Assembly (NCBI RefSeq): GCF_016809835.1
Contig: NZ_JAFBIL020000001.1
Span: forward strand, 1-64,000
Source: Massilia soli
GTDB taxonomy: Bacteria; Pseudomonadota; Gammaproteobacteria; Burkholderiales; Burkholderiaceae_D
DNA: 64,000 bases
Direction of reading: 5' to 3'
Part shown: positions 8,488 to 18,751 of the stretch, piece after piece
Position numbering within the stretch: the stretch's first letter is position 1
How the letters are laid out: every line of letters begins with the position of its first letter
Translations under genes and position numbers: made by a program
The notes under the pieces: model-generated
Seen by the model: only the letters and a program-made list of their open reading frames with translations
Databases searched by the model: none
Told to the model about the DNA's origin: nothing

Positions 8488-9159
8488 ATGACCACATTCC
8501 GCATCGCTCCCAGCATCCTGTCCGCCGACTTCGCCCGCCTGGGCGAGGAAGTCCGCAATGTTGTCGCCGCCGGCGCCGACATCATTCACTTCGATGTGAT
8601 GGACAATCATTATGTTCCCAACCTGACGATCGGACCGCTGGTCTGCGCCGCGATCCGCCCGCACGTGCAAGTGCCGATCGACGTGCACCTGATGGTCAAG
8701 CCGGTCGACCGCCTGATTCCCGACTTTGCCAAGGCAGGCGCCAACATCATCACCTTCCACCCGGAAGCGTCCGAGCACATCGACCGCACGCTGCAGCTGA
8801 TCCGCGACAACGGCTGCAAGGCCGGCCTGGTGTTCAACCCGGGCACCCCGATGCACTACCTCGACCACGTGATGGACAAGATCGACATGATCCTGATCAT
8901 GTCGGTCAACCCGGGCTTCGGCGGCCAGTCGTTCATCCCTGAAGCCCTCACCAAGATCGCCTACGCGCGCAAGAAGATCGACGAATCGGGCCGCGACATC
9001 ATGCTGGAAGTCGACGGCGGCATCAAGATCGACAACATCGCCGCCGCAGCCGCAGCAGGCGCCGACACCTTCGTCGCCGGCTCGGCCATCTTCGGCCAGC
9101 CAGACTACAAGGGCGTGATCGACGCGATGCGCGCGCAGCTGGCAACCACCGGCAAATAA
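8488..9159 (+). CDS. rpe: Ribulose-phosphate 3-epimerase
   Basis: Cytoplasmic TIM-barrel enzyme of 223 residues that interconverts ribulose 5-phosphate and xylulose 5-phosphate in the pentose phosphate pathway. Family motifs are all present: [10 protein letters not shown] with the catalytic Asp, [12 protein letters not shown] and HLMVKPV with metal-binding His and Asp, [10 protein letters not shown] at the phosphate loop, and EVDGGI with the second catalytic Asp. The stop codon shares its last base with the start of gph, so the two are translationally coupled. It heads the rpe-gph-trp cluster common in betaproteobacteria. Confidence 0.97.
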
Positions 9160-9857
9160 TGAAGCCAGGCGCCTCCCCGATCCGTGCGGCGATCATCGAC
9201 CTTGACGGCACGATGCTCGACACGATCCCCGACTTCCACGTCGCAATCAACCGCATGCGCGCCGAGTTCGACCTGGCCGCCATCACCCAGGAAGCCATTG
9301 CGCTGATGGTCGGCAAAGGCTCGGAGAACCTGATCCGCGGCGTGCTGGCGCAGGACTTCGACAGCGCCGGCGTCGAACAGCGCATCGGGGAAGCGATGGA
9401 CGCCTACCAGCGCCACTACCTCGACATCAACGGCCAGCACAGCACCCTGTACATCGACGTCGAAGCGGGCCTGAAGGCGCTGCGCGCGCAAGGCCTGCGC
9501 CTGGCGTGCGTGACCAACAAGCCGCTGGCGTTCGCGCTGCCGCTGCTGGCGCAGAAGGGCCTGGCGCCCTACTTCGAGATCGTCTACGGCGGCGACTCCT
9601 TCCCGCGCAAGAAGCCCGACCCGATGCCGCTGCTGCAGGTCTGCAGCGATTTCGACCTCGATCCGCGGCAAGTCGTGGCCATCGGCGACTCGTCCAACGA
9701 CGCCGAAGCGGCGCGCGCGGCCGGCTGCTATGTACTCACTGTGCCATATGGTTATAACCACGGACGGTCTATACACGAAACGGATTCCGATGGTATAGTT
9801 GAATCGTTGCTCCAGGCAGCAACCCTGATTCAAACGCATAACCACAGCGCACACTAG
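9159..9857 (+). CDS. gph: Phosphoglycolate phosphatase (HAD family)
   Basis: HAD-superfamily hydrolase of 232 residues, expected to dephosphorylate 2-phosphoglycolate formed in DNA repair and oxidative metabolism. Motif I is DLDGT (nucleophile Asp14, acid/base Asp16), motif II is CVTNK, and motif III/IV is KKPDP followed by GDSSNDAEAARAAG. The start ATG overlaps the rpe stop by one base. The trp attenuator begins immediately after it; since attenuation controls only what follows, gph would be expressed without tryptophan control unless a trp promoter lies inside its 3' end. Confidence 0.94.
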   Translation: MKPGASPIRAAIIDLDGTMLDTIPDFHVAINRMRAEFDLAAITQEAIALMVGKGSENLIRGVLAQDFDSAGVEQRIGEAMDAYQRHYLDINGQHSTLYIDVEAGLKALRAQGLRLACVTNKPLAFALPLLAQKGLAPYFEIVYGGDSFPRKKPDPMPLLQVCSDFDLDPRQVVAIGDSSNDAEAARAAGCYVLTVPYGYNHGRSIHETDSDGIVESLLQAATLIQTHNHSAH

Positions 9858-9868
9858 ACAAAAATCGC

Positions 9869-9955
9869 ATGTTTTTCATCAAAAAACACAATGTCACGCA
9901 AGCCGGCTCGATTGAGGCCTGGCTTTGGCGACGCTGGCAATCCTGGGCTAAGTAA
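9869..9955 (+). CDS. trpL: trp operon leader peptide
   Basis: A 28-codon frame beginning ATGTTTTTC and ending GCTAAGTAA, with four tryptophan codons at positions 18, 20, 23 and 26, closely packed just before the stop. Tryptophan is otherwise rare, so this density is the signature of an attenuator leader peptide. It lies between gph and trpE and is followed within 14 bases by an intrinsic terminator. The ribosome site is weak (an A-rich stretch, CAAAAATCGC, before the ATG). Ribosome stalling at Trp18 or Trp20 would report tryptophanyl-tRNA shortage. Confidence 0.88.
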   Translation: MFFIKKHNVTQAGSIEAWLWRRWQSWAK

Positions 9956-10002
9956 CCCGTACTGATTGCTGTCGCGTGCCTGCGCACGCCGACAGGTTTT
10001 TT
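9910..10002 (+). terminator. trp attenuator: competing hairpins and intrinsic terminator
   Basis: The terminator pairs CTGTCG-CGTGC (9969-9979) with GCACG-C-CGACAG (9984-9995) around a CTGC loop, followed by six Ts (9997-10002). An antiterminator can form between GCAATC (9937-9942) and GATTGC (9964-9969), optionally extended by GCGAC (9928-9932) with GTCGC (9971-9975); this uses up the terminator's 5' arm. A protecting 1:2 hairpin can form between GATTG (9910-9914) and CAATC (9938-9942). A ribosome stalled at the first Trp codons would cover 9910-9914 and favour the antiterminator. Pairings were found by eye; no folding energies were computed. Confidence 0.85.
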
Positions 10003-10049
10003 GAAACCCACCGCCATCTACAACTATGCCTGGCGGCCTGGAGAAAAGC

Positions 10050-11546
10050 ATGACCGAACTCGAATTCCAATCGCTGGCCGCTGAAGGCTACAACCGTATT
10101 CCATTGATCGCGGAAGCCTTCGCCGATCTCGAAACCCCGCTCACGCTCTACCTCAAGCTGGCCCAGACCCAGAACGCAGGCAAGAACACCTTCCTGCTCG
10201 AATCGGTGGTCGGCGGCGAGCGCTTCGGCCGCTACTCCTTCATCGGCCTGCCGGCGACGACCGTGCTGCGCACGTTTGGAAGCCGCACCGAGATCGTCAA
10301 GAACGGCAGCGTCATCGAAACCCACGACGGCAATCCGCTCGACTTCATCGAACAATATCAGGCCCGCTTCAAGGTCGCGCTGCGCCCTGGCATGCCGCGC
10401 TTCTGCGGCGGCCTGGCCGGCTACTTCGGCTACGACACCGTGCGCCACATCGAGCGCAAGCTGGCCGACGGCGCGCCCAAGGACGACCTGGGCCTGCCCG
10501 ACATCCAGCTGATGGTGACCGAGGAACTGGCGGTCATCGACAACCTGTCCGGCAAGCTGTACCTGATCGTCTACGCCGACACCACCCAGCCTGAGTCGTT
10601 CTCGAAAGCGCGCCAGCGCCTGAAAGACCTGCGCATGATGCTGCGCCGCGGCGTCGACGCGCCGGTTACCTCGAGCTCGGTACGCACCGAGGCGATCCGC
10701 GACTTCAGCAAGGAAGACTATCTGAAGGCGGTCGCGCGCGCGCATGAATACGTGATGGCCGGCGACCTGATGCAAGTGCAGATCGGCCAGCGCATCCGCA
10801 AGCCGTATGTCGACAACCCGCTGACCCTGTACCGCGCGCTGCGTTCGCTGAACCCGTCGCCGTATATGTACTACTACAATTTCGGCGACATGCAGATCGT
10901 CGGCGCCTCGCCGGAGATCCTGGTCCGCAACGAAACCCTGCCCGACGGCGGCCGCAAGGTCACGCTGCGCCCGATCGCCGGCACCCGTTCGCGCGGCGCC
11001 ACCCCGGAGCGCGACGCCCAGCTGGCCGAAGAACTGCTGGCCGACCCGAAAGAAGTCGCCGAGCACGTGATGCTGATCGACCTGGCGCGCAATGACCTGG
11101 GCCGGATCTCGGAGATCGGCAGCGTCGCCGTCACCGACCGCATGGTCATCGAAAAATACTCGCACGTTCAGCACATCGTCTCGAACGTCGAAGGCAGGCT
11201 GAAAAAAGGCATGTCGAACCTCGACGTGCTGCGCGCCACCTTCCCTGCCGGGACCCTGACCGGCGCGCCGAAAGTGCGCGCCATGGAGGTCATCGACGAG
11301 CTGGAGCCGACCAAGCGCGGCATCTACGGCGGCGCCTGCGGCTACCTGAGTTTCGGCGGCGAGATGGATGTGGCGATCGCGATCCGCACCGGCGTCATCA
11401 AGGACGGCATGCTGTACGTCCAAGCCGCGGCCGGGATCGTGGCCGACTCGATTCCTGAGATGGAATGGCAAGAAACCGAAAACAAGGCACGCGCCGTGCT
11501 GCGCGCGGCGGAACAGGTGCAAGACGGCCTGGATGGGGAGCTCTGA
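10050..11546 (+). CDS. trpE: Anthranilate synthase component I
   Basis: Catalytic subunit (498 residues) that converts chorismate to anthranilate with ammonia supplied by TrpG, the first committed step of tryptophan synthesis. The N-terminal region contains the LLES feedback motif ([17 protein letters not shown]) used for tryptophan inhibition. The chorismate-binding C-terminal half includes [25 protein letters not shown] and [17 protein letters not shown]. The ATG at 10050 follows GGAG by six bases; an in-frame ATG eight codons upstream is rejected. It is the first gene after the attenuator; trpG follows after one base. Confidence 0.97.
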
Positions 11547-11547
11547 C

Positions 11548-12120
11548 ATGCTGCTGATGATCGATAACTACGACTCGTTCACCTACAACCTGGTGCAGTA
11601 CTTCGGCGAGTTGGGCGAGGAAGTGCGCACCGTGCGCAACGATGAAATCACGATCGAAGAGATCGAAGCGATGAAGCCCGACCGCATCTGCATTTCGCCG
11701 GGCCCGAAAACGCCGGCCGAAGCGGGCATTTCGATCGCGATCCTCGAACACTTCAAGGGCAAGCTGCCGATATTGGGCGTATGCCTCGGCCACCAGGCCA
11801 TGGGCGCCGCGTTCGGCGGCAAGGTTATCCGCGCCAAGCAGGTCATGCACGGCAAAACCTCGCTGATCGCCCACACCGGCGAAGGCGTGTTCAAGGATTT
11901 GCCAAGCCCGTTCACCGTGATCCGCTACCACTCGCTGGCCATTGAACGTAGTTCGCTGCCGGCCTGCCTGGAAGTGACCGCGTGGACCGACGACGGCGAG
12001 ATCATGGGAGTGCGCCACAAGGACTACGATATCGAGGGTGTGCAGTTCCACCCCGAGTCGATTTTGTCCGAGCACGGCCACGCACTGCTGAAGAACTTCC
12101 TCGAGCGCACAGCGCCATAA
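11548..12120 (+). CDS. trpG: Anthranilate synthase component II, glutamine amidotransferase
   Basis: Class I glutamine amidotransferase of 190 residues that releases ammonia for TrpE. The catalytic triad is visible: Cys79 in GVCLGHQ, His168 and Glu170 in [11 protein letters not shown]. It begins one base after the trpE stop (TGA-C-ATG) behind a GGGGAG site, and has the length typical of stand-alone TrpG/PabA. In such organisms the same subunit may also serve PabB in folate synthesis; no pabB is in the window. Confidence 0.96.
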
Positions 12121-12135
12121 CCCAGGAGCTACCGA

Positions 12136-13170
12136 ATGCCTATCACCCCACAAGAAGCCCTGCTGCGCTGTATCGACCACCGCGAGATTTTCCACGACGA
12201 GATGCTGCACCTGTTCCGCCAGATCATGTCGGGCGAAATGTCGCCGACGATGGTCGCTGCGCTGACCATGGGACTGCGCGTCAAGAAGGAAACCATCGGC
12301 GAGATCGCGGCCGCCGCGCAAGTCATGCGCGAGTTTTCGACCAAGGTGCCGATGGCCGACACCACCAACCTGCTCGACATTGTCGGCACCGGCGGCGACG
12401 GCGCGCACACCTTCAATATCTCGACCGCGTCGATGTTCGTCGCCGCCGCTGGCGGCGCGCGCGTGGCCAAGCACGGCGGCCGCAGTGTGTCGTCGTCGTC
12501 CGGCAGCGCCGACGTGATCGAAGCGCTGGGCGCCAACATCAACCTCAAGCCCGAGCAGATCGCCCAGTCGATCGCGCAGACCGGCATCGGCTTCATGTTC
12601 GCCCCCAACCACCACGCCGCGATGAAGCACGCCGCGCCGGTGCGCAAGGAACTGGGCGTGCGCACCATCTTCAACATCCTCGGGCCGCTGACCAATCCAG
12701 CCGGCGCCCCGAATATCCTGATGGGCGTGTTCCATGCCGACCTGGTCGGCATCCAGGTACGCGTACTGCAGCGGCTCGGCGCACAGCACGCGATCGTGGT
12801 GTGGGGCCGCGACAACATGGACGAAGTATCGCTTGGCGCATCGACCATGGTCGGTGAACTGGTCAATGGCGAAATTCGCGAATACGAAATCCATCCGGAA
12901 GACTTCGGCATGCAGATGATCGCCAGCCGCAACCTGAAGGTGGCCAATTCGACCGAGTCGATGGCCATGATGATGGCAGCGCTTGGCGGCGAGCCGGGCG
13001 CACCGTACGACATCGTCTGCCTGAACGCCGCCACCGCGCTGTACGCGGCAGGTGTCGCATCGTCGATCGAAGATGGTCTGGTAAAGGCGCGCGAATCAAT
13101 CAACTCCGGGGCCGCCAAGGCGAAGCTGCAGCAGTTCGTCCAGGTGACCCAGCAGCTCGGCGGAAGCTAA
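12136..13170 (+). CDS. trpD: Anthranilate phosphoribosyltransferase
   Basis: Enzyme of 344 residues that couples anthranilate to PRPP to form phosphoribosylanthranilate. It shows the family's glycine-rich PRPP loop [17 protein letters not shown], the [16 protein letters not shown] segment and [11 protein letters not shown]. An AGGAG site precedes the ATG. It follows trpG by 15 bases and is followed by trpC after 6 bases, so it belongs to the attenuated operon. Confidence 0.97.
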
Positions 13171-13176
13171 CAGACC

Positions 13177-13977
13177 ATGTCAGATATCCTCAACAAGATC
13201 CTCTCGGTAAAGGCAGACGAAGTCGCCGCCGCCAAAAAGCACCGCGACCTGGCCAGCCTGCGCCGCGACGTGGAAGCCGATGCTGAAGGCCGCCGCAACC
13301 TGCGCGGGTTTGAAGCGAGCATGCGCAAGCACATCGCGGCGGGCAAAGCCGGCGTGATCGCGGAAGTTAAGAAGGCGTCGCCGTCGAAAGGCGTGCTGCG
13401 CCAGGACTTCCGCCCGGCGAATATCGCCGAGACGTATGCGCGCCATGGTGCGGCGTGTTTGTCGGTGCTCACCGATGTGAACTTTTTTCAAGGCTCGGTC
13501 GAGTATTTGAAAGCCGCGCGCGCCGCGGTCGATATTCCGGTGATCCGCAAGGACTTTTTAATCGACCTGTACCAGGTGTACGAAGCCCGCGCGATGGGTG
13601 CGGATGCGATCTTGCTGATCGTCTCGGCGCTCGATCACGGGCTGATGGCGGAGATGGAAGCCTGCGCGCTGGAACTGGGACTCGATGTGCTGGTGGAAGT
13701 ACACGACGGCGACGAGCTGACCGCGGCGCTCAAGCTGCGCACGCCGCTGGTGGGCATCAACAACCGCAACCTGCGCACCTTCGAGACCTCGCTGGACACC
13801 ACGATCGACCTGCTGCCGCGCATACCGGCCGACAAGCTGGTGGTGACTGAATCGGGAATCATGGTGCCGGATGACGTGAAACGCATGCGCGACGCGAATG
13901 TGCACGCGTTTTTGGTTGGCGAAGCGTTCATGCGCGCGCCGGATCCGGGCGTCGAGCTTGAGCGGCTGTTCGGATAA
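13177..13977 (+). CDS. trpC: Indole-3-glycerol phosphate synthase
   Basis: Monofunctional TIM-barrel enzyme of 266 residues (not fused to trpF) that closes the indole ring of 1-(2-carboxyphenylamino)-1-deoxyribulose 5-phosphate. Motifs: [13 protein letters not shown] with the catalytic Lys, [43 protein letters not shown] and TESGI. It ends the attenuated operon; trpF, trpB and trpA are not in the window. A GC-rich palindrome (13982-14011) just after the stop may act as the operon end. Confidence 0.97.
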
Positions 13978-18675: not shown

Positions 18676-18751
18676 GGCCTGGTAGCTCAGTTGGTAGAGC
18701 AGAGGATTGAAAATCCTTGTGTCGGTGGTTCGATTCCGCCCCGGGCCACCA
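18676..18751 (+). tRNA. tRNA-Phe (GAA)
   Basis: A complete 76-base cloverleaf. The acceptor stem GGCCTGG pairs with CCGGGCC, there is an A discriminator and an encoded CCA (18749-18751). The anticodon stem GAGGA/TCCTT encloses the loop TTGAAAA with anticodon GAA, and the T-loop is GGTTCGATTCC. An intrinsic terminator follows. Its 3' half is repeated three more times to the right, marking it as an integration site. Confidence 0.97.

Follow-up and report, generated by a model that had tools for sequence, protein, structure and literature searches.

In Escherichia coli the trp genes are preceded by an attenuator, trpL, in which a leader peptide with Trp codons, an intrinsic terminator and a competing helix are found ahead of trpE. 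In Bacillus subtilis the trp genes are under dual control, by termination of transcription and by masking of the trpE ribosome site, with the protein TRAP as the sensor. A long-range lock is described for Salmonella speF/orf34, where translation of an upstream open reading frame (ORF) opens a helix joining that ORF to the downstream ribosome site; in the accessible part of that report the system has arginine codons and Rho-dependent termination, with the partners ~500 nt apart (PMC6386406). In the LEU element of actinobacterial leuA it is, as the available extract has it, the run of Leu codons itself that pairs with the Shine-Dalgarno box (PMC1262725). For Sinorhizobium meliloti trpL the available text gives a leader of 14 residues, a transcript that begins at the ATG, and rnTrpL and peTrpL, which act in trans (PMC7298713).

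We have analysed the leader between gph and trpE in a bacterial window (the whole stretch of DNA analysed, 64,000 nucleotides) and hypothesise that its RNA is a dual-level attenuator, in which a terminator is combined with a translational lock opened by leader ribosomes, a reading that we consider probable. By analogy, the leader would work like both kinds of system, trp attenuators and long-range locks, the parts themselves being already known. Like E. coli trpL, it has a Trp-codon leader, an intrinsic terminator and a putative competing helix before trpE. It differs in the spacing of its Trp codons (W.W..W..W), which fall within strand 2 or directly ahead of it, and in the pairing of the leader start with the ribosome site of trpE. 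Rfam, with its Trp_leader model, has no match here at the gathering score; when the limit was relaxed to E ≤ 1, the one match was to an unrelated lncRNA, at 15.5 bits (its cut-off being 45). The two-level logic, with a terminator and a trpE ribosome site hidden in the read-through RNA, is that of B. subtilis, with the difference that the proposed sensor is the leader ORF and not the protein TRAP. With speF/orf34, as far as the accessible text describes it, the leader shares a long-range helix between ORF and ribosome site and the involvement of premature termination, which makes that system a precedent for the lock logic; it differs in its Trp codons, intrinsic terminator and spacing of ~170 nt (PMC6386406). 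Unlike the LEU element, known to us from a partial text, it is the first codons of the leader that pair with the trpE site, the Trp codons lying inside (PMC1262725). S. meliloti trpL, in what is available of its description, is similar in having a Trp leader ORF before trpE and transcription attenuation, whereas the window's leader has 28 codons and likely a 5' untranslated stretch of ~60 nt (PMC7298713). A search of the open-access literature, with most subscription papers outside it, found no description of such a leader.

We propose that control would be exerted at two levels. At the first, the terminator (9969-10002) can halt transcription before trpE, and a ribosome paused at Trp18 would leave strand 2 (9933-9942) free for 9964-9972, which would take the base of the terminator stem. 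At the second, P1, P2 and P4 (the last holding the GG of the Shine-Dalgarno sequence) would make for poor translation of trpE from the read-through RNA, and ribosomes on the leader would keep P1 and P2 open. With charged tRNA-Trp scarce, a ribosome stalled at Trp18 and another queued behind it would cover the leader start, so that the trpE site would be freed and anthranilate synthase made; with ample Trp, the leader would be cleared of ribosomes and the lock would close. Within this scheme we infer that the leader is translated and that ribosomes stall and queue on it, as well as which way the control runs and where the transcript begins.

The trp locus and its leader reading frame

The gph gene is followed in succession by trpE, trpG, trpD and trpC (Table 1), and trpB is found on a separate contig of the same draft genome. 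A sequence-only reading, which had described a leader with Trp codons and a terminator ahead of trpEGDC without BA, directly behind gph (which ends at 9857), was right in these respects. We take 10050 as the start of trpE, given a GGAG at 10040-10043 and an ATG at the aligned place in 80/80 relatives; the mechanical ORF opens earlier, at 10026. The separate trpB has no W leader of its own in its 4152-nt stretch, a W leader being taken as an ORF that begins with ATG and has 3 or more Trp among 8 residues. The closest named relatives of TrpE among the matches listed are from Massilia, Janthinobacterium and Duganella, which points to the Oxalobacteraceae, order Burkholderiales, and the best 80 of 576 TrpE relatives together with the window formed our family set of 81 Oxalobacteraceae-type loci. 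Two genes for tryptophanyl-tRNA synthetase, both trpS-like, are present elsewhere in the genome (L201 and L202, on contigs C22 and C1), and a tRNA at 18676-18748 is the sole Rfam match above gathering score in the window.

Table 1. Coordinates of the genes, leader elements and helices considered here, as positions in the window
Feature	Position	Strand	Basis or remark
gph, phosphoglycolate phosphatase	9159..9857	+	NF009695 and TIGR01449 above cut-off
Likely promoter within gph 3' end, TATACA-18-TATAGT, TG before -10	9770..9799	+	scan, 9/12 matches
P1 5' strand CAUGUUUUUC, start of leader ORF	9868..9877	+	pairs with 10043-10052
ORF of the 28-codon leader peptide, with Trp18, Trp20, Trp23 and Trp26	9869..9955	+	MFFIKKHNVTQAGSIEAWLWRRWQSWAK; motif in 81/81 loci
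P2 5' strand CAAAAAAC, Lys5-Lys6 codons	9880..9887	+	pairs with U-tract 9996-10003
Near-invariant block GAGGCCTGGCTNTGGCGACGCTGGCAATC, Trp codons and strand 2	9914..9942	+	base conservation; only Leu19 wobble free
P3 5' strand (strand 2)	9933..9942	+	pairs with 9964-9972
P3 3' strand (strand 3)	9964..9972	+	9969-9972 common to terminator 5' arm
Intrinsic terminator, stem 9969-9979/9984-9995, C9989 bulged, then G9996, T9997-10002	9969..10002	+	-16.4 kcal/mol
P2 3' strand GUUUUUUG, also terminator U-tract	9996..10003	+	RNAalifold, covariation, duplex test
P4 hairpin CCACCGCCA/TGGCGG..TGG, into GG of trpE Shine-Dalgarno	10008..10041	+	RNAalifold
P1 3' strand GAAAAGCAUG: end of trpE Shine-Dalgarno, spacer, start codon	10043..10052	+	covariation and folding
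trpE, anthranilate synthase component I	10050..11546	+	TIGR00564 above cut-off
trpG	11548..12120	+	GATase domain and position; name inferred
trpD	12136..13170	+	Glycos_transf_3 and Glycos_trans_3N domains; name inferred
trpC	13177..13977	+	IGPS domain

The leader ORF and its four Trp codons are present as first described. No Shine-Dalgarno sequence is visible by eye before its ATG, and the peptide had no match in Pfam and NCBIfam searches. Conservation among relatives had been put forward as a check on the leader, and it holds for the motif AW[LPV]WR[RG] (A-W-x-W-R), present no more than 420 nt upstream of trpE in 81/81 loci, and for the arms of P3; Trp26, kept in at most 70/81, is less conserved than the sequence-only model requires, and the Trp23 codon is a stop in one locus (L037). 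One family member, L091, with a genome of ~2.2 Mb, has no W-rich leader before trpE.

The candidate trp promoter lies inside gph codons (9785-9800), and its -10 element forces a rare ATA Ile codon. This Ile codon is ATA in 64/64 loci in which the gph motif was matched (17/81 being unmatched), compared with 62/2346 Ile codons in trpE. The hexamer TATA[AG]T occurs in 81/81 loci no further than 220 nt upstream of where the leader begins, a count that stands without a shuffled control, and it is mostly 55-90 nt away; the idea of a leaderless leader mRNA was dropped, as judged by eye, with the hexamer at this distance. A transcript start at ~9806 is our assumption, derived from the scanned promoter.

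Pairing of the leader start with the trpE ribosome site

RNAalifold, run unprompted on 35 of the 81 loci, returned P1, P2, P3, a short inner stem and P4. In this consensus 96.2% of cells are paired, against 92.6 (sd 0.3) in 500 column shuffles and 31-54% with slid partners, the slid comparison leaning towards a structure drawn from the same alignment; 10/36 pairs are changed on both sides, with 57 such cells against 19.4 (sd 4.2) in shuffles, and relatedness inflates these counts. Because the structure is derived from the same alignment, and because of this inflation, the cross-family test given in the last section matters more than the alignment counts.

P1 connects the beginning of the leader ORF with the ribosome site of trpE; 95.2% of its cells are paired in the 35-locus alignment, with 3/9 pairs changed on both sides. 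In an ungapped register, 416/511 cells pair over the 73/81 loci with an in-frame ATG, the next best register giving 376; this count omits the eight loci lacking such an ATG (L012, L016, L018, L019, L022, L025, L029 and L079). Position 5:-3 is T-A in 49 and C-G in 13 of these 73, and position 7:-5 is T-A in 26 and C-G in 22. Over all 81 loci the cognate RNAduplex energy is -12.83, whereas permuted partners have a mean of -11.19 and a best of -11.90, none of 5000 being as good. The matched changes are readily seen: ATGTTTCTC at the leader start goes with GAGAGAAAC ATG at the trpE site; ATGTTCTTC goes with GAAGAAC ATG in L040, L046 and L051; ATGTTCCTC goes with GAGGAAC ATG in L062 and L083, with L086 as an exception; and ATGTCT goes with AGAC ATG. 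Partition-function folds give at least 5 expected P1 pairs in 75/81 family loci, and in 77% of 648 non-cognate chimeras; those below 5 are L064, L066, L070, L080 and L086 (Undibacterium) and L045. The trpE ribosome site thus appears to be paired with leader ORF sequence, and the pairing to be kept by compensatory change.

P2 pairs the Lys codons of the leader with the U-tract of the terminator (98.2% of cells paired in the 35 loci; 2/8 pairs changed on both sides). Its cognate duplex over the 81 loci has an energy of -11.68, against -9.71 (sd 0.19) for permuted partners (0/10000). The window's own P2 duplex is unremarkable: compared with partners from other loci, it has ranks of 29 and 26 out of 81. 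In some relatives P2 extends past the A/U run, as with AAAAAACGT and ACGTTTTTT in L057, L062 and L076, and AAAAAACGC and GCGTTTTTT in L082. The A run is interrupted in L069, and there ATAACAAAC of the leader pairs with GTTTGTTAT (rank 27 and 10 of 81); the best duplex differs in L064 and L080, so this pattern is not general. The U-tract is probably used twice, as a strand of P2 and in the terminator. P1 and P2 have the clearest compensatory support among the helices, and together they would form a translational element that the sequence-only reading had not included. P4, which is supported in the same way by compensatory change and folding, has 92.4% of its cells paired in the 35 loci, with 3/8 pairs changed on both sides.

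P3, the putative competing helix, has 97.5% of its cells paired in the same alignment and 2/8 pairs changed on both sides; it is weakly tested by covariation, since most of its pairs hardly vary. The three segments from which alternative pairings had been read, GATTG (9910-9914), GCAATC (9937-9942) and GATTGC (9964-9969), are all present at these places. The first of the pairings (1:2), between 9910-9914 and 9937-9942, was rejected as a conserved element, as at most 41/81 loci keep it (A at 9911). The second had been thought to break the 5' arm of the terminator: GCAATC:GATTGC as such shares only C9969 with it, whereas the conserved helix takes 9969-9972.

Terminator, ribosome position and the near-invariant block

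The terminator hairpin (9969-9995) and its six Ts are present as first described, with one G (9996) before T 9997-10002. A general terminator scan found no site within 9500-10500, presumably owing to the bulge in the stem, and a hairpin-plus-T-run script recovers the terminator at the energy in Table 1. By that script a terminator-like hairpin and T run are found in 62/81 family loci (the window itself and 61/80 relatives), compared with 5/81 shuffled; the rule permits a gap of up to 3 nt from the stem to the T run, so that loci with AACGTTTTTT are missed.

We modelled the effect of ribosomes by equilibrium folding of 9806-10079, with an assumed footprint that extends 15 nt upstream of the P site and 12 nt downstream from the beginning of the A site. 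Without a ribosome, P1 has a probability of 1.0, and all of 10043-10052 is paired. P1 falls to 0.0 when a ribosome initiates on the leader or is queued behind a Trp18 stall. It remains at 1.0 when one ribosome alone is stalled, whether at Trp18, at Trp20 or at the stop codon, and also with a queue behind Trp20, so that in the model the opening of P1 depends on a Trp18 queue or on initiation. When P1 is lost, the unpaired probability of 10043-10052 rises to 0.60, and that of 10040-10045 only from 0.17 to ~0.31.

For the terminator the modelled shift is modest and in the direction attenuation would give. Without a ribosome, strand 2:3 pairing (0.86) and the terminator (0.83) coexist, and the whole terminator stem stays within 0.68-0.90 across all ribosome positions. 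The six lower terminator pairs have a probability of 0.69 with no ribosome, 0.58 at Trp18, 0.50 at Trp20, 0.51 at Trp23, 0.43 at Trp26 and 0.82 at the stop codon. It had been supposed that a ribosome at Trp18 or Trp20 would free strand 2 for strand 3 and that ribosome position would thereby set the terminator; the folds bear out the first part for Trp18 (strand 2:3 at 0.75) but not for Trp20 (0.03), and the second in its direction, with a modest shift (0.82 at the stop codon against 0.58 and 0.50). For nascent transcripts ending at 9975-9990, strand 2:3 pairing is 0.11-0.27 with a Trp18 stall, against 0.91-0.95 without a ribosome. A transcription switch is plausible on this model.

These results bear on whether the leader might be an ordinary transcription attenuator of the enterobacterial type, with P1 and P2 as by-products of A/U-rich starts and the U-tract and with no role of their own. 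Such a reading has the leader, its Trp codons and the excess of terminators over shuffled sequence in its favour, together with the well-kept strand 2/strand 3 pairing and a lower stem that peaks with the ribosome at the stop codon; however, the compensatory pairs in P1 and the cognate preference across families of unrelated sequence speak against it, and we regard it as unlikely. On the dual-level reading, which we prefer, the terminator would be one of two controls.

The Trp codons and strand 2 fall in a block that is near-invariant at the level of bases. Across the 81 loci codon 16 is GAG in 80, the third base of codon 17 is C in 78, codon 21 is CGA in 81, codon 22 is CGC in 80 and the third base of codon 24 is A in 78, whereas the Leu19 wobble base varies (T35, A21, G19, C6). 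As a background, 3.9% of 155 conserved four-fold columns of TrpE in the same loci reach 0.96, and CGA makes up 32/2798 of its Arg codons. The CGA directly after Trp20 (9929-9931) is fixed in 81/81 loci, and in the leaders of other families W-R-W is written with CGA in 27/34 cases. Pairing accounts for part of the conservation of the block and does not account for the fixed A of CGA, which might reflect a slow codon. An explanation of the wobble conservation by overlapping reading frames was dropped, as judged by eye. The block was also tried as a marker of a wider class and rejected, the exact pattern having matched the window's own genome only (369 genomes, 3 others of the order).

The fixed wobble bases and the rare CGA could also be explained if the leader RNA or peptide worked in trans as well, like rnTrpL/peTrpL, for which there is a precedent in the accessible part of the Sinorhizobium report (PMC7298713). 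We think this very improbable: a search of the genome on either strand with up to 3 mismatches found the block in a single copy, with no second copy or long complement, and local pairing and codons already account for part of the conservation. Four Undibacterium loci (L064, L066, L070 and L086) retain block codons 16-23 although they have no rule-defined terminator and fewer than 5 expected P1 pairs, so that the block may have a function beyond those of terminator and lock.

Related leaders across the order and class

The order was represented by 112 genomes with a TrpE. After removal of the window's own genome, and of another in which the locus meets the edge of its contig, 110 remained, from 48 families as told apart by anonymous labels, with L175, only 122 nt long, counted among the misses. 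An ORF of 9-36 codons with a W cluster precedes trpE in 64/110 genomes and 31/48 families, compared with 27/550 Markov-shuffled sequences. We then compared the duplex between leader start (the 51 nt before the first clustered Trp) and trpE site (the last 28 nt before trpE) in all 64 leaders, spurious ones included: the cognate energy is -16.53, against -12.72 (sd 0.40) for permuted partners (z -9.5, 0/20000), and with one leader per family (31 families) z is -6.9 (0/20000). A control segment 51 nt further upstream also gives a weaker signal, with z -2.8 (61/20000), or -2.6 with one per family. An earlier broad test with long segments, which is less specific, gave -22.81 for cognate and -20.70 (sd 0.38) for permuted partners, the best of 5000 being -22.14.

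Leaving out the 2 leaders of the window's family and 13 judged spurious by eye (L093, L098, L103, L118, L130, L133, L136, L149, L163, L179, L187, L188 and L190) gives 49 outside-family leaders, the set used for the terminator, expected-P1-pair and codon counts. At least 5 expected P1 pairs are present in 29/49 of these (19/23 families), against 26% of 392 chimeras, with 20/49 below 5. In the 32 of them with a single in-frame ATG the first clustered Trp is at a median codon of 13.5 (range 7-21); in many leaders this leaves space for about one more ribosome before the first Trp, and it is therefore that we read the lock as opened by a queue.

A terminator-like hairpin and T run occur in 19/49 outside-family leaders, against 3/49 shuffled, and 30/49 are without one by the same T-run rule. 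The latter figure counts against an ordinary attenuator, and it is what might be expected if the translational lock acted alone, the terminator being weak or serving the ends of gph read-through transcripts and not Trp control. A lock alone would also suit the modelled P1 probability and the whole-stem terminator probability, which barely moves with ribosome position; against this stand the hairpin and T run of the window and most of its family, and the reach of P3 into the terminator stem, and we consider it quite unlikely for this locus, for which we retain the dual-level attenuator.

Outside the order, where 40 of 79 TrpE matches were fetched, from the upper part of the ranking, W-cluster ORFs were found in 13/40 loci, and in 16/200 shuffled sequences. 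Ten of the 13 leaders were tested, with L217, L232 and L236 omitted as not leader-like, and these ten from the rest of the class have a cognate energy of -20.5 against -14.2 (0/20000). Given this cognate preference, the plan of pairing the leader with the trpE site extends beyond the order and is built of unrelated sequences.

We offer a wider reading, as a tentative one that may quite possibly hold: a widespread class of Trp leaders in Burkholderiales and others of the class, with W-R-W ORFs whose first codons are paired with the trpE site, in which the lock would be ancestral and would open when ribosomes queue up after one has stalled at Trp, and to which the window's family would have added its terminator by reusing the second helix of the lock, as the U-tract also pairs with the Lys codons of the leader. 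If this is true, one of the textbook operons has, across a large order of bacteria, a second switch that is run by ribosomes and acts on translation, in unrelated sequences and on one plan. It offers a testable case both of a single leader with effects on transcription as well as translation and of the evolutionary sequence of the two levels. Many genomes would gain a small gene ahead of trpE, and the reading would account for a leader start without a visible Shine-Dalgarno sequence and for Lys codons that are nearly always AAA.

Striking duplexes across families are those of L126, L165, L147 and L137. In L126 the helix between leader start and trpE site has more than 20 pairs and consists of repeats resembling CACAGAG; a repeat element has perhaps replaced the lock there.
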